From positions 1-11,489 of the forward strand of contig WJIO01000065.1 of the NCBI GenBank assembly GCA_014730235.1: a DNA stretch of 11,489 nucleotides, read 5' to 3'. The notes beneath the pieces were generated by a model. That model was not told the DNA's origin. It saw nothing but the letters and a program-made list of their open reading frames with translations, and ran no database searches. The stretch's first letter is position 1; the number at the start of each line of letters is the position of its first letter. The stretch is from Candidatus Poribacteria bacterium (GTDB lineage Bacteria > Poribacteria > DTPJ01 > WJIO01). Positions 1 to 9,787 of the stretch are shown here, piece after piece. The translations under genes and the position numbers were made by a program.

Positions 1-1413
1 CCTATATCCCGTAAACGTATATGGGGTATGCCGGTTCCTGTCTTTCATTGTAAAAAATGCAAGCTACAGTATGATCCCGTTAAAAGTATAGACGAATCAA
101 GAAGCTTAATTAGAAGAAAAGGCTTTGATTGGTGGTTAAAAGCTAAGCCTAATGATATTCTGCCGGATGGCGTTACATGTGAAACTTGTGGTACAAGAGA
201 TTTCAGATGGGGCAACGATGTATTGGATACTAAATTCATGTCAGCAATGATTTACAGAAATTCATATGTAAAAGAACAAGTTCCTGATCATTCTAAATCT
301 TTGTATACCGGAACAGACATACCTGATGAAAAAAACTTCCAGTTATCTTTAATACCTGCGTTCGCTATTGAAGAATCCGTTCCTTTTGATGCTGTGTTTT
401 TTCATAGATATATAAAAAACGATAAAGCTAATGATTTAGATATTAAAGCTTATTGTAAAGAATTTAGTGTTGATGTCTTTCGCCTCTGGGTTATTTCAAT
501 AGGACAAAAACATGATAGCGTTTTATCCCGGGATAGACTTGACGTGGTTAATAAATTTTACAGGTGTATAAGAAACACTTGCAGGTTTTTATTGAGTAAT
601 ATAAGTGATTATAACCCGCAGGAAGATTCTCTGGATTCTATAGATATGCGAGAATCTGATCGCTGGATTCTTAATAGGATTATGATCCTCATTAAAAATA
701 TTGATTTGGCACTTAATAATTACAATTTTCACAGGTTTTACAATCTACTGCACAATTTCTTTCATGGTGATGCTTCAGATTATATTAATATAACCAAACG
801 CAGGCTTTACACGCTTCCCCGATGGTCTATGAACAGGAGATCAGCTCAAACTGCTATATATGAGTTTGTAGTGAAAATTACGAAAATTTTGTCGGTGGTA
901 ATTCCTTATACTGCTGAGGATATTTGGCGTCATATACCCGGGATTGCCAGCACATATCCCAGTGTATTTATGTCAGAATGGCCAGAAATACAGGGAAGTT
1001 TTGTTGACCATGATTTGTTATCTAATTGGGATACGCTATTTAGAATTCGTCAGGAAGTACATAAGGTATTTGTTGATTTAAAAGATAAAGTCTTGCTGGA
1101 GAATTCACTTAAAGCCTGCGTAACAATTTATCCATCATCAGATCTCTTTGAACTTCTTGATACTCATATTGATGATTTGGAGAATATCTTTGGCGTTTCC
1201 CAGGTTCGTCTTATGCAGCCTGATTTACCTGTTCCTGATTCGATTTGGATTTCTGAAAATATTGAGGGATTGGGTATCGAAGTAAAACAAACCCCAGGTG
1301 ACAAATGTGAAAGATGCTGGATATATTCAGATACTGTTGGTTCTAGTAAACAGCACCCAAGTTTATGTTTTAGCTGTATAGCAATACTTGAAGGTGGAAC
1401 TCATTATATTTAA
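1..1413 (+). CDS. ileS: Isoleucyl-tRNA synthetase-like protein, C-terminal part (5' end outside window), catalytic motifs degenerate
   Basis: The frame is open from base 1, so the ATG at 28 is internal: the first residues, PISRKRIWGMPVPVF, align with the WCISRQRxWGVPxPxF stretch of IleS. Downstream come a Cys4 knuckle (Cys codons at 49, 58, 178, 187), the end of the catalytic core (VDVFRLWV), the anticodon-binding helical domain (RCIRNTCRFLLSN, DRWILNRI, RRSAQTAIYEF, PYTAEDIWRHIP) and the C-terminal zinc motif CERCW...LCFSC (Cys codons at 1306, 1315, 1366, 1375). Position directly before lspA is the classic ileS location. Oddity: the family's DxWFDSG is DTKFMSA (226-246), GSDQHRGWF is replaced near 310-350, and the KMSKS loop is missing with about 8 residues deleted (412-447). 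It is therefore probably not an active synthetase, despite an intact frame. A divergent paralogue with a new role, or a young unitary pseudogene, are alternatives. Confidence 0.9.
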   Translation, partial: PISRKRIWGMPVPVFHCKKCKLQYDPVKSIDESRSLIRRKGFDWWLKAKPNDILPDGVTCETCGTRDFRWGNDVLDTKFMSAMIYRNSYVKEQVPDHSKSLYTGTDIPDEKNFQLSLIPAFAIEESVPFDAVFFHRYIKNDKANDLDIKAYCKEFSVDVFRLWVISIGQKHDSVLSRDRLDVVNKFYRCIRNTCRFLLSNISDYNPQEDSLDSIDMRESDRWILNRIMILIKNIDLALNNYNFHRFYNLLHNFFHGDASDYINITKRRLYTLPRWSMNRRSAQTAIYEFVVKITKILSVVIPYTAEDIWRHIPGIASTYPSVFMSEWPEIQGSFVDHDLLSNWDTLFRIRQEVHKVFVDLKDKVLLENSLKACVTIYPSSDLFELLDTHIDDLENIFGVSQVRLMQPDLPVPDSIWISENIEGLGIEVKQTPGDKCERCWIYSDTVGSSKQHPSLCFSCIAILEGGTHYI

Positions 1414-1433: not shown

Positions 1434-1958
1434 TTGTCAGTTTCAATTACAGATACCTCAAAAGATATAGCCAAATCAAGTCTGCCAATGGTTATCACGG
1501 CGGTATTAGTTATAGCTCTTGACCAGGTTACAAAAGAAATAATACGCAATACTGTTGCTATAAGAGGAACAATACAGGTTATCAAGGGTTTTCTTCAAAT
1601 AACCTACGCTGAGAACACCGGCGCAGCTTTTGGCATGTTTCGCGGTAAAAATAATGTATTTATTATAATAGGCATTATTGCTATAATATTTATACTGCTT
1701 TATTACAGACAATTCAGGTCAAGTACCTGGATGAGAATATCCCTGGGTTTTCTTTTGGGTGGTGCTGTTGGTAATATGATTGACAGGATTGTCTTTCATT
1801 ATGTTACAGATTTTATCCGGGTTCGCTGGTGGTTTTTGCGTCTTCGCTGGTGGCCTTCGTTTAATGTTGCTGACGCGGCTGTTTTAATTGGTGCATCAAT
1901 GTTAATCATAGGAATGTTTATAGAAAGCAAAAATATTCCCCAAACAGAAAAAGGATAA
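1434..1958 (+). CDS. lspA: Lipoprotein signal peptidase (signal peptidase II)
   Basis: This inner-membrane aspartyl protease cleaves the signal peptide of diacylglyceryl-modified prolipoproteins. The 174-residue protein has four hydrophobic segments and all family blocks: LDQVTK (29-34), ENTGAAFG (60-67), GNMIDR with catalytic Asp117, and FNVADAA with catalytic Asp147. The start is TTG at 1434, with AAGGGAG (1418-1424) nine bases upstream. It lies 20 bases after the IleS-like gene and 2 bases before lgt, whose product supplies its substrates. An oddity is a duplicated RWW block (residues 131-140), made by an 11-base direct repeat, which makes the loop before the second catalytic Asp a few residues longer than usual. 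Confidence 0.97.
   Translation: MSVSITDTSKDIAKSSLPMVITAVLVIALDQVTKEIIRNTVAIRGTIQVIKGFLQITYAENTGAAFGMFRGKNNVFIIIGIIAIIFILLYYRQFRSSTWMRISLGFLLGGAVGNMIDRIVFHYVTDFIRVRWWFLRLRWWPSFNVADAAVLIGASMLIIGMFIESKNIPQTEKG
1822..1853 (+). repeat. Short direct repeat inside lspA
   Basis: TTCGCTGGTGG occurs at 1822-1832 and again at 1843-1853, a period of 21 bases (7 codons). In the protein it gives VRWWFLR followed by LRWWPSF. This looks like an in-frame tandem duplication of a loop segment. Confidence 0.8.
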
Positions 1959-1960
1959 AT

Positions 1961-2761
1961 ATGAGACCAACTTTATTTACAATTGGTTCTTTGCCTGTTA
2001 GAGGTTATGGTCTTATGGTGGCCCTGGGTTTTTTAATTGCCATATTTTACGCATCAAGAAAGGCAAAAAAAGAGGGTATACCACCACAGATAATTTTTGA
2101 TCTGGGACTTTATGTATTAATCAGCGCTCTTTTAGGTGCGCGACTTTTTCACACTTTCCAGCATTTAAATTCTTATGAATCAATATGGGATGCTTTTAAA
2201 ATCTGGCAAGGAGGATTAGCTTATTACGGTGGTCTAATGCTGGCTGTGATAGTTACCGTAGTATATCTGCGATGGAAAAAGATATCAATTGTCCGGGTTG
2301 GTGATATAATCGCACCGGCGATGATCCTTGGGATGGCATTTGGTCGTATAGGCTGTTTCCTGGCCGGATGTTGTTTTGGTAAACCAACCTCACTTCCCTG
2401 GGGAATGAGTTTTCCTGAAGGTTCGCTGGCATGGCTTGAAATGGGATCGCAAAAAATTCACCCTACCCAGTTATATTCTTTCTTATCACTCCTGATAATT
2501 TTTGCTTTACTCAATCTATTAAGAAAATATTTTAAAATTCCCGGTCAAATTTTTATGTTGACTATTATGACTTATTCTGTTTTTAGATTTTTGATTGATT
2601 TTATAAGATATTACACACCAGATGAAAAAATTGGAGCCTTGACTACATCCCAGGTAGTTAGTATACTGGCTTTTATTATTTCATCTATATTTTTAGTTAT
2701 ACTTTCTATACGAAATAAAAGTGAAGTTGGTGATAATAATGGCAGAATTGGAAATATTTAA
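1961..2761 (+). CDS. lgt: Phosphatidylglycerol--prolipoprotein diacylglyceryl transferase
   Basis: The enzyme transfers diacylglycerol from phosphatidylglycerol to the lipobox cysteine of prolipoproteins, the step before LspA. The 266-residue polytopic membrane protein has the Lgt hallmarks: RGYGLM near the N-terminus, GGLAYYGG (84-91), the signature GRIGCFLAGCCFG (128-140) with the essential Arg129, HPTQLY (167-172), and a C-terminal FRFLIDFIRYY with the conserved Arg pair. The ATG at 1961 has AAAGG (about 1949-1954) upstream, overlapping the end of lspA. Its last 23 bases overlap def, suggesting translational coupling. Confidence 0.97.
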   Translation: MRPTLFTIGSLPVRGYGLMVALGFLIAIFYASRKAKKEGIPPQIIFDLGLYVLISALLGARLFHTFQHLNSYESIWDAFKIWQGGLAYYGGLMLAVIVTVVYLRWKKISIVRVGDIIAPAMILGMAFGRIGCFLAGCCFGKPTSLPWGMSFPEGSLAWLEMGSQKIHPTQLYSFLSLLIIFALLNLLRKYFKIPGQIFMLTIMTYSVFRFLIDFIRYYTPDEKIGALTTSQVVSILAFIISSIFLVILSIRNKSEVGDNNGRIGNI

Positions 2762-3266
2762 ATACGGTTCGGATATACTCAGAGTAAAAGCCAAATATAT
2801 TGAGGAAATTACCGAAGAAATAAAGCAACTCGCTGAGAATATGCTAAGTACCATGTATTCTTCCGATGGTGTGGGTCTAGCTGCCCCTCAGGTTGGTATA
2901 TCAAAACAAATAATTGTTCTTGATGTAGATCCCTATAATCCGGAAGCAAAACCTATGGCTCTTCTTAATCCCAAAATAATTGAATGTGAGGGTGAGGACG
3001 ATGGAGAAGAGGGTTGCCTCAGTGTTCCTGATATTAGGGGAATAGTCCGACGATATAAAAACGTAGTGGTGGAAGCAATGGATCTGGATGGTAAAAAGCT
3101 GCGTATTGAAGCTTCTGATCTAATGGCCAGGGCTTTACAGCATGAGATAGACCATCTTAACGGCATACTATTTGTTGATCATCTTAGCCGCCTGAAACTT
3201 CGTCTTATCAAGAAGCAATTGAACAAAATCGAAGAGGAAGCAAAGGCAAAACAACGGGCAAGTTAA
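2739..3266 (+). CDS. def: Peptide deformylase
   Basis: This metalloenzyme removes the formyl group from the N-terminus of nascent proteins. The 175-residue product carries all three motifs: GVGLAAPQ (44-51), EGCLS (91-95, metal ligand Cys93) and QHEIDH (134-139, ligands His135 and His139, catalytic Glu136). I chose ATG 2739 (MAELEIFKYG) rather than the upstream in-frame GTG at 2721 because Def proteins usually begin just before the L.I..YG.. block. It overlaps lgt by 23 bases and ends 1 base before fmt, which adds the formyl group it removes. The C-terminal 25 residues are Lys/Glu-rich. Confidence 0.96.
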   Translation: MAELEIFKYGSDILRVKAKYIEEITEEIKQLAENMLSTMYSSDGVGLAAPQVGISKQIIVLDVDPYNPEAKPMALLNPKIIECEGEDDGEEGCLSVPDIRGIVRRYKNVVVEAMDLDGKKLRIEASDLMARALQHEIDHLNGILFVDHLSRLKLRLIKKQLNKIEEEAKAKQRAS

Positions 3267-3267
3267 A

Positions 3268-4212
3268 ATGCGTATAATATTTATGGGTACTGACATATTT
3301 GCTGTACCAGCTTTGAAAGCCATTGCCGGAAGTTCACTGGAACTGGTTGCTGTCATTACCCAACCGGATCGTCCAAAGGGTAGAAAATTAAAACTTACTC
3401 CTTCACCGGTTAAAAAATCAGCCCAGAACTTAAGCTTGGAAGTATACCAGCCCGAAAAAGTTAGTGATAAAACTTTTATCAATGAGGTTTTAAAACCCAT
3501 TAAACCTGACATCATCGTGGTGGCGGCTTATGGTCAGATATTGTCCTCAGAGATAATACACATGCCACCTATAGGTTGTATAAATATACATCCTTCACTA
3601 CTGCCAAAACTTCGTGGTGCTGCGCCTATTCAACGGGCAATTATCAATGGTGATAAAGAAACCGGTGTAACAATCATGTTCCTTGATGAAGGTGAAGATA
3701 CAGGAGATATTATAATTCAGGACAGGACACCAATTAATCTGTCAGATACAGCAGAAGACCTATTTATTAGATTATCGGAATTAGGGTCACAGATGCTTAT
3801 GAAGGTACTGGATATGGCCCAAAAACAAATTCTTCCCCGGTATCCCCAGGATGACACCAAAGCTACCCATGCCCCTAGATTAACAAAAGAGGTGGGAAGA
3901 ATAGATTGGAATAAAAGCAGTATTGATATTCATAACCTGATCCGGGGAACTATACCCTGGCCTGGAGCATATACGAACTTTAATGAAAAATTAAGGGTTA
4001 AAATTTGGGAGAGCTGGCCTGTCAGTGATTTATCATCAACATCAGGATCACCAGGTATTATAGTTGATATAGTTTCAGATAAAGGTATTATTGTATCTAC
4101 TGGTCAGGATGAATTGCTTCTAAAAACTATTCAACCTCCAAACAAGGCCAAAATGGATTTTAAAGATTTTGTTAATGGTTACAGAGTCAAAATCGGTGAT
4201 ATGTTTATTTAG
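3268..4212 (+). CDS. fmt: Methionyl-tRNA formyltransferase
   Basis: The enzyme formylates Met-tRNAfMet with 10-formyl-THF, allowing initiation. The 314-residue product has normal family length. The N-terminal Rossmann domain starts MRIIFMGT and contains the catalytic Asn106/His108 in NIHPSLLPKLRGAAPIQ and Asp144 in DEGEDTGD. The C-terminal OB-type tRNA-binding domain starts around residue 205 (RIDW..., IRGTIPWPGAY) and ends near KIGDMFI. The start ATG lies one base after the def stop with no strong ribosome-binding site, so translation is probably coupled to def. Confidence 0.97.
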   Translation: MRIIFMGTDIFAVPALKAIAGSSLELVAVITQPDRPKGRKLKLTPSPVKKSAQNLSLEVYQPEKVSDKTFINEVLKPIKPDIIVVAAYGQILSSEIIHMPPIGCINIHPSLLPKLRGAAPIQRAIINGDKETGVTIMFLDEGEDTGDIIIQDRTPINLSDTAEDLFIRLSELGSQMLMKVLDMAQKQILPRYPQDDTKATHAPRLTKEVGRIDWNKSSIDIHNLIRGTIPWPGAYTNFNEKLRVKIWESWPVSDLSSTSGSPGIIVDIVSDKGIIVSTGQDELLLKTIQPPNKAKMDFKDFVNGYRVKIGDMFI

Positions 4213-6045: not shown

Positions 6046-7254
6046 ATGAAAAAAAATCTTAAAAATATGACAGGAAATATAAGACATCTTCTAAACGCCG
6101 TAAAAGTTTCCCTTAAACAAGGCGGCAGCTTTCTGGAAAGCCGATGCATCCCAAACGGACCTATTATGCAGGAACAAAATCTGAGTTATATACACAAAGC
6201 CACATGGGGTATGTACGCTTCCGGGGTGGAACATTCTTTAATCGCAAAGTTACTGGATTGGGCAATGGAAAAGGCTTTACAGCCTAACGGCGATTTTTAT
6301 TTTCCCGATGAAGCACCTGAGTATAAGGATATGCAAAGACTTTATCGTCCATTGACATTTGGCAAAGTAGCCGTATGGATAGACCATCCAGTCATGAAAA
6401 AACAAAGGGTAATTGACCGGATTCTGCAATATCAACACGAATCCGGAGGGGTGTTTAACTATATAGGTGATGATCCCGATAACATCCAAGAGCAGGATAC
6501 TATTGGAACCCTAAACACCAGCTTTTTCGGACACCTGATGTTAGCCCTGGATATGAAAGAACAAGCCATAAAAGCGGGTAACTGGCTTTGTAACTTTGTG
6601 GATGCCAACAGGGAATATATGTCAAAAAATATAATGTATTGCAATATGACTCCAGCAGGTGATCTTGTTACCCATCTTGAACCAGGAGAAAATATCTCCG
6701 GCAAGCTGGATTACATTTCACCAAAGCAGGAGTTCTGGCAACCGGGAACAGTGATGGCCTATCTTGCAGTTCTGTATGAAAAAATGCTGGATTCATGGGG
6801 TTACAGCGAAGAAAGTGCCCAACCTTATCTGGATAGTGCTTTAACTTTACTGGAATTTGAAAGTGGGATGCCCCTCTATACATACCTTTGGCCATCCAAA
6901 TGCAAAGTTGGTTGGGGCGCGGGGGAAATACTCAGGATTATGGTAAAGTATAGTATAGGTAACGAAGAACAGTTGTATAAAGCATATAAAGCAGCGAGAA
7001 AGGTTGCCATATTTACCTTTATGGATAATCAGCTTCCTCATGGCGGCTGGTCGTGTATGCATTATCCATTGAGTGAGTTAATACCTGAAATGGCCTTTGA
7101 ATATAAACCCCTTAAAGGCATTATTAATGTGCCAGACAAGCAGATACCCGATTCCCAGAACATATTCCTGCCAGCCGAGGAAATATCAGGTGAATTCTTA
7201 GGTGAAATGGAAGCCATAAAGCGCGGACTGGAAGAAGTTCTTAAAAAATTGTAA
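6046..7254 (+). CDS. Predicted alpha/alpha-toroid protein (terpenoid-cyclase/prenyltransferase-like fold), function unknown
   Basis: I do not recognise a named family. The 402-residue protein is largely helical and shows spaced Gly-rich aromatic loops: PNGDFYFPDE (80-89), ESGGVFNYIGDD (132-143), PHGGWSCMHYP (331-341). These resemble the helix-hairpin ends of alpha/alpha-toroid proteins such as squalene-cyclase/prenyltransferase repeats or six-hairpin glycosidases. No DxDD cyclase motif is visible. There are many Trp/Tyr residues (QEFWQPGTVMAY, YTYLWPSKCKVGWG), as in carbohydrate- or lipid-binding barrels. No signal peptide is seen, suggesting cytoplasmic location. It lies 24 bases after rsmE and 32 bases before the sialidase-like gene, with which it likely forms a functional pair. 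Carbohydrate handling is an inference from that neighbour only. Confidence 0.65.
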   Translation: MKKNLKNMTGNIRHLLNAVKVSLKQGGSFLESRCIPNGPIMQEQNLSYIHKATWGMYASGVEHSLIAKLLDWAMEKALQPNGDFYFPDEAPEYKDMQRLYRPLTFGKVAVWIDHPVMKKQRVIDRILQYQHESGGVFNYIGDDPDNIQEQDTIGTLNTSFFGHLMLALDMKEQAIKAGNWLCNFVDANREYMSKNIMYCNMTPAGDLVTHLEPGENISGKLDYISPKQEFWQPGTVMAYLAVLYEKMLDSWGYSEESAQPYLDSALTLLEFESGMPLYTYLWPSKCKVGWGAGEILRIMVKYSIGNEEQLYKAYKAARKVAIFTFMDNQLPHGGWSCMHYPLSELIPEMAFEYKPLKGIINVPDKQIPDSQNIFLPAEEISGEFLGEMEAIKRGLEEVLKKL

Positions 7255-7286: not shown

Positions 7287-8582
7287 ATGAGCAGTCAAAT
7301 TCAGGTCGGTGATCCAAAAACAGAATGGAAGCGCAGCAATCCCGATATAATCGTATACATACCAGAAGAAGATGGAATAAACGACGGTGATAACGAGCAT
7401 TTTCTTGTCTTTGAATCTCCTGATGGTGAAGAACTTCTGGCCATGTGGAATCAAAGTTCCTGTGAAGGCCGGGGTGATAATCATATTGTTATAGCCCGTA
7501 GCAAAGACGGCGAAAACTGGTCTAAACCGCAGTGGATCGCTGGCACTCATCCCGGAACTGATGAACCACAGGCAAGCTGGGGGTTTCCTGTAGTATCGAA
7601 ACAGGGAAGAATATACTGCTTTTATGTCAGGGAACTGAATGTCTATGATAACAGCCGCCAGGCCAGCGGCGCTATGGGATGTCATTATTCCGACGACCAG
7701 GGACACACATGGATACAGGGTAAAAATATCCTCATGAAACGCAATCGTTATGATAATCCTGATCCATCTATCCCCCGGAACTGGATCGTCTGGCAAAAGC
7801 CTATTCGGGACAGCCAGGGAAGATGGTTTGTGGGATACTCCCAGGATACCAGTAATTCAATGATGAAATATACCCCGGCTGGATGGTGGGAAAATGAGCT
7901 TAGATGCCAATTCATGAGGTTTGATAATATTGACGACGCTCCTGATCCGACGGATATAAAAATAACATGGCTTCCATACGATGAAGAAGGTTTAACCGTT
8001 CCCCATCCATATTTACCTGATGTGACTATTGCAAATGAACCAAGTGTGGTTTTACTACCTGATAATCGGATTTTTACCACCATCAGGAACGCTACCGGGC
8101 ATATCTGGTATTCTATGTCAGAGGATGATGGGGAAACTTGGCGAAAAACCGAAGTGATGAGATATAAAGACAACGGAGAGCCAGTTAAAGAACCAATAGC
8201 CCCCTGTCCTATCTATGCCCTGAATGATGGACGTTACTTGCTGGTATTTCATAACAACGATGGTCGCTTTGGTCCATACAACCAATTTGAGCGTAAATGG
8301 AAAACCAACTATGCCAACCATTTCCGCCGCCCCGGATTTATTGCTGTGGGAGAATTTCGTCCTGAAGCCCATCAACCTATATGGTTCAGCCAGCCCAAAC
8401 AAATACTGGACACTGATGGCGTTATAGTAGGCCCAAAGCGAACAGCCGAAATCGCCACATATACCAGCCTGACAGAATGGAAGGGTAAAAGGGTTTTGTG
8501 GTATCCAGACCGTAAATATTACCTTCTGGGTAAGTATATCACTGATGATATGCTTGATGATATGGTAGTAGATAGAAGTTAA
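7287..8582 (+). CDS. BNR/Asp-box sialidase-superfamily protein
   Basis: The 431-residue protein has three Asp-box (SxDxGxxW) loops: SKDGENW (72-78), SDDQGHTW (135-142) and SEDDGETW (278-285). Between them is the family-like block EPSVVLLPDNRIFTTIR (251-267), whose Arg267 matches the position of a conserved sialidase arginine. These indicate a six-bladed beta-propeller of the sialidase superfamily. The usual N-terminal RIP/Arg-Ile-Pro motif is not evident, so sialic-acid hydrolysis is not assured; another glycoside substrate or binding role is possible. No signal peptide is visible, unusual for a secreted glycosidase. AGGAG (7272-7276) precedes the ATG. GC content is higher than in flanking genes. 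Confidence 0.8.
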   Translation: MSSQIQVGDPKTEWKRSNPDIIVYIPEEDGINDGDNEHFLVFESPDGEELLAMWNQSSCEGRGDNHIVIARSKDGENWSKPQWIAGTHPGTDEPQASWGFPVVSKQGRIYCFYVRELNVYDNSRQASGAMGCHYSDDQGHTWIQGKNILMKRNRYDNPDPSIPRNWIVWQKPIRDSQGRWFVGYSQDTSNSMMKYTPAGWWENELRCQFMRFDNIDDAPDPTDIKITWLPYDEEGLTVPHPYLPDVTIANEPSVVLLPDNRIFTTIRNATGHIWYSMSEDDGETWRKTEVMRYKDNGEPVKEPIAPCPIYALNDGRYLLVFHNNDGRFGPYNQFERKWKTNYANHFRRPGFIAVGEFRPEAHQPIWFSQPKQILDTDGVIVGPKRTAEIATYTSLTEWKGKRVLWYPDRKYYLLGKYITDDMLDDMVVDRS

Positions 8583-8654: not shown

Positions 8655-8680
8655 TAATGTAAAAAAGGAGAGTGAGAATA

Positions 8681-9787
8681 TTGACAACAGATAGGGAATT
8701 AATTCATCGAATAAAAAATGGAGAAAGTGAAGCATTCAATCAAATTTTCTTCAGATATTATAAAAACGTTTTTTCTATCTGCTTGTCTATTCTCAAGAAT
8801 CCAGAAGACGCTGAAGAAGCAACCTCTGATACATTTATACATGCTTATTTCAAGCTGGAACAGATTAAGAATCCCGATAAATTGGCAAATTGGTTAAATC
8901 GAATAGCCCAAAACCGCAGTCGTGATTATCTACGTAGCAAGAAGTCATCAAAAGAAAAATTAAAAAGAATTATTTTACAGTTAGATAAAATTAAGGATAA
9001 TTCAATTCAAGTATATCCTTTCTCAGAGCGGGAATTGATAGAAATTATTATGAAAACTATCGAATCCCTACCACAAAAGGATATAGATATTATTCGGGCA
9101 AGGGCAGAAGGTTTAAGTCATTCAGAAATCAGCGACAAATTAGGAATCTCTCAGCAGGCCAGCAGGGCAAGATTTTATCGAGCCAGAAAGAAAGTTACTG
9201 AAAATGTTAGAAAGTTTCTATATGGAACACTTGGTTTATTCAGAAAAGTAACTTTAAAGGGTTTAATATCCGGGGGGATTGTGACAATGAAAACAGCACC
9301 AGTAGTGAAAATAGGAATATTAGTTGTAGTAATATTGAGTTTGGGGTTTTTAGGTTTTCGGGTGGTACAATTCAATAATAAGACTAAGTCTAATCAAATA
9401 GTTAATGAAGAAAAACAGGAAATTAAAAAGGAAATAAAGACAGATTCAGTCAAAATAAAACCAAAACTAATCACTGAATCTAATCATGTAGATGCAAATG
9501 TCGGCAATGTATCTAATAATCAAAATGATGACGTCGCAACTGAGGATATGAAGAGTTTTGTCAAAATGATTGACGCAATTGAAGAAAATAATAATCTTGA
9601 AAAGTCTGAAGAGTCATTCAAGGAAGAACCTGAACAAAATATTGCCAGAGAATTAAGGATAGAATTAGAAAATATGCTAAACAGATGTATTGAATTAGGT
9701 GAAGATATTGTTCCACGCTTAGAAGCTATAGGAAAAATAAAAGATCCTGCTATCAGAAATGCAGAACTAAAAAAATGGACAATTTAA
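8681..9787 (+). CDS. ECF-type RNA polymerase sigma factor with transmembrane segment and C-terminal tail
   Basis: Residues 1-90 form sigma region 2 (ELIHRIKNGESEAFNQIF, KNPEDAEEATSDTF, WLNRIAQNRSRDYLR). Residues about 115-175 form region 4 with the helix-turn-helix LSHSEISDKLGISQQASRARF. A hydrophobic helix follows (about 208-229, VKIGILVVVILSLGFLGF), then a charged Lys/Asn/Glu-rich linker and a short helical region (about 290-368). The architecture implies a sigma factor tethered to the membrane with its tail outside the cytoplasm. I chose TTG 8681 (10 bases after AAAAAAGGAG) over the in-frame GTG at 8672, which sits almost on the ribosome-binding site. Composition is very AT-rich (15 GC in 60 bases at 9421-9480). 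The frame ends in an A7 run that may permit -1 shifting into the following reading frame. Confidence 0.85.
   Translation: MTTDRELIHRIKNGESEAFNQIFFRYYKNVFSICLSILKNPEDAEEATSDTFIHAYFKLEQIKNPDKLANWLNRIAQNRSRDYLRSKKSSKEKLKRIILQLDKIKDNSIQVYPFSERELIEIIMKTIESLPQKDIDIIRARAEGLSHSEISDKLGISQQASRARFYRARKKVTENVRKFLYGTLGLFRKVTLKGLISGGIVTMKTAPVVKIGILVVVILSLGFLGFRVVQFNNKTKSNQIVNEEKQEIKKEIKTDSVKIKPKLITESNHVDANVGNVSNNQNDDVATEDMKSFVKMIDAIEENNNLEKSEESFKEEPEQNIARELRIELENMLNRCIELGEDIVPRLEAIGKIKDPAIRNAELKKWTI
9769..9775 (+). other. A7 slippery heptamer, candidate -1 frameshift or transcriptional slippage site
   Basis: Seven A's lie in the phase A AAA AAA relative to the sigma-factor frame (CTA AAA AAA TGG). A -1 shift gives CTA AAA AAA ATG GAC and continues into the 61-codon frame ending at 9960. 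The zero frame stops four codons later (W-T-I-stop). A sequencing error of one A in the homopolymer would produce the same picture. Confidence 0.4.

Follow-up and report, generated by a model that had tools for sequence, protein, structure and literature searches.

The window, meaning the whole stretch of 11,489 nucleotides that was analysed, begins inside a gene for an IleRS-like protein. The frame comprises 470 codons counted from the first base of the contig, which indicates that the contig start truncates the gene and that only its 3' half is present. We refer to this gene as pseudo-IleRS, or dead ileS1. The features of the locus are as follows.

1..1413, + strand: pseudo-IleRS (dead ileS1), 3' half, 470 aa, no stop; IleRS and Anticodon_1 profile matches
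4..27, + strand: ISRKRIWG, partly kept remnant of the CISRQRxWG block (alignment)
49..60, + strand: first Zn knuckle CKKC, residues 17–20 (C17, C20), kept (alignment; cysteines kept in 41/41 relatives)
178..189, + strand: second Zn knuckle CETC, residues 60–63 (C60, C63), kept (alignment; cysteines kept in 41/41 relatives)
226..246, + strand: DTKFMSA replacing DVWFDSG, residues 76–82 (alignment)
313..339, + strand: TDIPDEKNF replacing GSDQHRGWF, residues 105–113 (alignment)
424..429, + strand: eight-residue deletion removing KMSKS, between residues 142 and 143 (alignment; same loop shortened in phylum relatives)
658..1122, + strand: anticodon-binding helical domain (Pfam Anticodon_1), residues 220–374, kept (profile match; AlphaFold pLDDT mostly 80–97)
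1297..1380, + strand: C-terminal Zn motif (zf-FPG_IleRS), residues 433–460, with C436, C439, C456, and C459 (profile match; kept only in the window member)
1434..1958, + strand: lspA (signal peptidase II), downstream neighbour in relatives too (profile match; relatives' loci)
1961..2761, + strand: lgt (profile match)
2721..3266, + strand: def, peptide deformylase (profile match)
3268..4212, + strand: fmt, single copy in the genome (profile match; nearest relatives from the same order, then the phylum)

The gene order after pseudo-IleRS was lspA, lgt, def, fmt, a PASTA protein, and an RsmE-like RNA methyltransferase. Further along the window, a 402-aa protein without NCBIfam or Pfam match (6046–7254) is followed by a BNR-repeat (sialidase-like) protein (7287–8582) and by an ECF sigma factor (8672–9787) with a long C-terminal extension that contains a hydrophobic, probably transmembrane stretch. 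Contamination was considered as the origin of the contig and rejected, because the genome has no other fmt than the one on this contig, and the nearest sequences to it come from the same order and phylum, the closest match being a same-order genome at 56%.

An earlier note on this DNA had described an intact frame at the ileS locus, and a single open frame was indeed found over 1..1413. The chance of such a frame at the base composition of the window is ~3e-16, and its GC contents by codon position (0.43/0.35/0.28) resemble those of the adjoining genes.

Motifs of the window protein

The best profile families for the window protein were IleRS (TIGR00392, NF040702), Anticodon_1, and zf-FPG_IleRS. 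The protein is not of the IleRS2 or MupA/MupB type, with MupA and MupB scores far under those of ordinary IleRS models. Motifs were called from a 24-row alignment of the window protein and 23 normal IleRS1, to which it was 29–34% identical. The alignment contained all the active-site changes that the earlier note had read by eye, i.e., the conversion of DxWFDSG into DTKFMSA, the rewriting of GSDQHRGWF, and the deletion of about eight residues with KMSKS. The reported change of WCIS to PIS stood in part: PISRKR replaces the CISRQR of normal IleRS1, but the contig opens with the codon for P, and the preceding W lies off it. Measured against catalytic IleRS1, the window protein thus lacks KMSKS and DxWFDSG/GSDQHRGWF and possesses the Zn knuckles and the anticodon-binding domain. 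Retention of this domain, of both knuckles, and of the C-terminal Zn motif, which reads DKCERCW..C..C in the alignment, had also been claimed and was supported by profile matches and alignment.

Sites that are near-invariant in IleRS1 were kept at 9 of 41 positions (22%) in the active-site block (residues 73–150), compared with 53 of 80 (66%) elsewhere in the window protein (p = 6e-6, Fisher test). Within the window, this agrees with the proposal that the loss is limited to the ATP/aminoacyl site, but relatives have also lost the editing threonines. The window itself holds no HIGH or editing region, and the N-terminal half of the gene is absent from the assembly. An AlphaFold model of the window protein, built with the alignment rows, had good confidence in the anticodon and C-terminal parts, and its top structural match as a whole was the IleRS-tRNA structure of S. 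aureus (1qu2, Z 27.3). Confidence fell below 50 at residues 73–85 and 87–117, around the lost motifs; low values at residues 73–117 may be owed partly to the absent N-terminal half of the Rossmann fold.

Distribution, descent and selection in the phylum

A family profile search detected the dead IleRS1-like protein in at least eight families of the same phylum, with 77 of the 84 genomes searched being positive. The earlier note had named orthologues with a normal KMSKS in close relatives as one finding that would refute it, and no counterpart alignable at that site had an intact one. Going beyond that note, the protein is phylum-wide and ancient and occupies the place of the ancestral ileS, and the losses extend to HIGH and to the editing residues. 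Most members are full-length, with fragments in G016, G074, G079, and the source genome (G000). Beyond the phylum, only IleRS2-sized matches were recovered at the cut-off used from four other phyla (1, 4, 132, and 54 genomes).

The losses are shared throughout the alignable members. H1 and G3 of HIGH were kept in 0 of 42, the Trp of DxWFDSG in 0 of 41, and the editing threonines T1, T3, and T2 in 0, 0, and 1 of 41, respectively. The KMSKS loop was shortened or deleted; its first lysine position was aligned in only three members and was K in none. The four Zn cysteines, by contrast with these catalytic residues, were present in all 41. Assembly error or local decay in the source genome was rejected, as identical losses occur in independently assembled relatives. 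In-frame stops flagged in some relatives were dismissed, being positions where the alignment overruns the ends of open frames.

Mean conservation in the family was 0.42–0.43 across the Rossmann and editing parts and 0.37 in the anticodon-binding region. Stretches conserved specifically in the family are REMPT, QDIFLK, and PGHHPxxY, while most of the residues conserved in the family coincide with conserved positions of normal IleRS and appear structural. The C-terminal Zn domain was found in the window member only; families f7, f9, and f10 retain some sequence there without the cysteines, and the others stop before it. A Lys/Arg-rich N-terminal tail, with a net charge of +2 to +15, was present in each of the 24 proteins inspected from the largest family (f3) and missing outside it. 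These tails have ~30–48 residues (e.g., L101, L186), and two of them carry an AT-hook-like KRGRP.

At every examined locus where the gene end was on the contig, dead IleRS1 lay directly upstream of lspA. Upstream of it, relatives have proC together with either a frame or a gap the size of yggT, with divIVA and yggS in several families. A position of ileS before lspA with such upstream genes is usual in Firmicutes. The conserved neighbourhood (yggS, proC, and divIVA in several families; lspA, def, and fmt) fits vertical descent of the gene. Descent from IleRS1 was likewise indicated by the ancestral locus, for which the upstream genes come from relatives only, and by branching with IleRS1 and not with IleRS2. 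In a tree on the window's columns, the window protein and 18 members formed one clade apart from normal IleRS1 (support 100/99), and the split between window and IleRS2 had support of 100/100. The window member was outermost in the clade, and the branching order agrees with a stepwise erosion of dead IleRS1, although several branches are long and the order is to be read with caution. No T-box or other known RNA was found upstream of the gene at 12 loci.

Decay of a pseudogene that is on its way out after takeover by IleRS2, with stops yet to accumulate, would account for the lost active-site motifs and for the absence of the gene in some genomes. No family member was found by the profile search in G003, G004, G007, and G029, each >90% complete; the other three of the seven genomes without a counted member (G001, G066, G081) are less complete. 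No gene remnant was detected at the locus in G004 and G007, where a yggT-like frame and lspA are separated by a clean gap, and dead IleRS1 is dispensable in some lineages. However, dozens of species have open frames of ~700–950 aa, and the family-specific conserved residues, the invariant Zn cysteines, and the ancient spread over families all argue against decay. The median dN/dS of dead IleRS1 was 0.16 (range 0.10–0.23) in the 32 pairs whose dS was usable; same-genome controls gave 0.135 (fmt) and 0.097 (lspA). Because the median is near that of fmt, the gene of the phylum is not a pseudogene; decay is refuted at the level of the phylum, and we regard it as very improbable. The same ratio backs the earlier proposal of selection for a non-catalytic role.

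IleRS2 and the charging of tRNA-Ile

The earlier note had predicted a second, active-type IleRS elsewhere in the genome. The source genome encodes a separate and complete IleRS2 of 1045 aa with KMSKS (contig C267; L009:4565-7699, - strand), and IleRS2 was found in nearly all genomes of the phylum, including single-contig genomes. In one 95% complete genome (G056, L121), dead IleRS1 was present and IleRS2 was not found, probably owing to an assembly gap. Most IleRS2 read in the phylum have GVHH replacing HIGH. This type of swapped motif has been linked to mupirocin hyper-resistance and is tolerated by IleRS2 but not by IleRS1 (PMC10485003). A second, divergent IleRS2 lineage occurs in f5 and f6 (L145, L146, L149, L199, L200), with GVHH and with MHKS replacing KMSKS, and is 35–41% identical to the IleRS2 of the source genome.

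The IleRS2 of the source genome reads TIAH at the HIGH position and so has no catalytic His in the first and third place. This oddity, and the location of the N-terminal half of the window gene outside the assembly, would leave room for a dead IleRS1 that is still an IleRS, catalysing via unusual residues and possibly complementing the TIAH enzyme. We give this scarcely any credence, since the KMSKS loop is deleted and DxWFDSG/GSDQHRGWF are rewritten, when the mere swap to GXHH already abolishes catalysis in IleRS1 (PMC10485003).

The source draft genome also has two full-length LeuRS that are 54% identical (L013:2605-5061, L014:2992-5493), both with HMGH and with KMSKS in one and VMSKS in the other; contamination of the bin (4.77%) is possible. 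Its ValRS (L010:4984-6390) is also cut at a contig end, and the N-terminal half was not found.

Proposed function and comparison with known systems

We propose that IleRS2 took over charging and that the displaced IleRS1 was probably kept as a non-catalytic pseudo-synthetase. The ancestral ileS1 of the phylum would still occupy its ancestral place before lspA, and the takeover of tRNA-Ile charging is suggested by the co-occurrence of the two proteins; a natural inhibitor may have selected for it. IleRS1, on this view released from catalysis, has lost HIGH, DxWFDSG, KMSKS, and the editing threonines, while dN/dS, distribution, and tree show that purifying selection has held the full fold and the structural zinc sites since before the phylum diversified. 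Because the sites were lost while the fold stays under purifying selection, dead IleRS1 would work without aminoacylation.

For its molecular action, we tentatively suggest that it binds an RNA, probably tRNA, and serves as an accessory factor, a chaperone, or a regulator, a reading that falls somewhat short of an even chance. The confident prediction of the anticodon domain in the window protein and the basic N-terminal tail of f3 would support it; the lower conservation of the anticodon-binding region and the restriction of the tail to f3 count against it. Normal IleRS1 needs the C-terminal Zn domain for tRNA recognition. The loss of this domain outside the window would speak against specific recognition of tRNA-Ile.

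Dead IleRS1 might instead be a scaffold or regulatory partner of proteins, without RNA binding; IleRS2 and the divIVA/lspA envelope-division cluster are examples of possible partners. Its constant linkage to lspA, the linkage to divIVA in several families, and the co-occurrence with IleRS2 point in this direction. However, the linkage is explained by the inherited ancestral ileS locus, and the largest family keeps the protein although divIVA is missing from its locus, which makes this role rather unlikely.

A remodelled enzyme, whose old Rossmann or editing pocket handles another substrate, has a precedent in SbzA, an IleRS-like aminoacyl transferase of SB-203207/SB-203208 biosynthesis that moves Ile from Ile-tRNA to a metabolite (PMC6331615). 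Like dead IleRS1, SbzA is an IleRS-derived protein alongside a working IleRS, with a role besides charging, and the stretches REMPT, QDIFLK, and PGHHPxxY could be read as traces of such remodelling. But SbzA has HIGH and KMSKS, belongs to a Streptomyces biosynthetic cluster, and shows weak residual charging (PMC6331615). An SbzA-type transferase was rejected for the window protein, which has no KMSKS and no biosynthetic cluster at its locus, and the mainly structural look of the conserved residues makes remodelling in general improbable.

Returning to the pseudo-synthetase, it seems likely that a full-length, catalytically dead class I synthetase gained a new conserved non-enzymatic function, as an RNA/tRNA-binding regulator or a scaffold, after displacement by IleRS2. 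If true, bacteria would possess an ancient pseudo-synthetase. A large class I enzyme has here lost its synthetic and its editing site, yet most of a phylum keeps it at the original ileS locus under selection of the strength seen for housekeeping genes, with charging probably left to another enzyme type. It would offer a natural experiment on the uses of an IleRS apart from tRNA charging, and a case of IleRS2, a kind known for antibiotic resistance, displacing the housekeeping enzyme. Gene position and partial profile matches probably lead to an annotation as ileS, which would mislead pathway and drug-target inventories.

Compared with bacterial IleRS1 (S. aureus 1qu2/1ffy, Priestia megaterium 8c9e), to which it is 32–33% identical, the window protein shares the fold, the Zn knuckles, the anticodon domain, the C-terminal Zn motif, and the position before lspA. 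It differs in having no KMSKS, DxWFDSG, or GSDQHRGWF, and its relatives also have no HIGH or editing threonines. IleRS duplicates treated in reviews are resistance enzymes (IleRS2) and SbzA. HisZ derives from HisRS, a class II synthetase. With HisZ and other aaRS-like proteins, dead IleRS1 shares the re-use of a synthetase fold without tRNA charging, but HisZ has a known role in histidine synthesis (PMC9437257). The dead or re-used synthetase paralogues reviewed are mostly derived from class II, small, or in possession of part of the chemistry (PMC9437257).

The nearest parallel is LeuRS-I of Sulfolobaceae, a class I duplicate of full length that coexists with a working enzyme and has a disrupted editing domain (PMC9437257). 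LeuRS-I does not aminoacylate, yet it is needed for optimal growth (PMC9437257, citing Weitzel 2020); it differs in being archaeal and LeuRS-derived and in still making leucyl-adenylate. Our search of the open-access literature found no description of a dead IleRS1 conserved across a phylum, nor of any full-length class I synthetase that has lost both of its sites and is still kept throughout a phylum. Dead IleRS1 would belong to the known kind of aaRS-like proteins.
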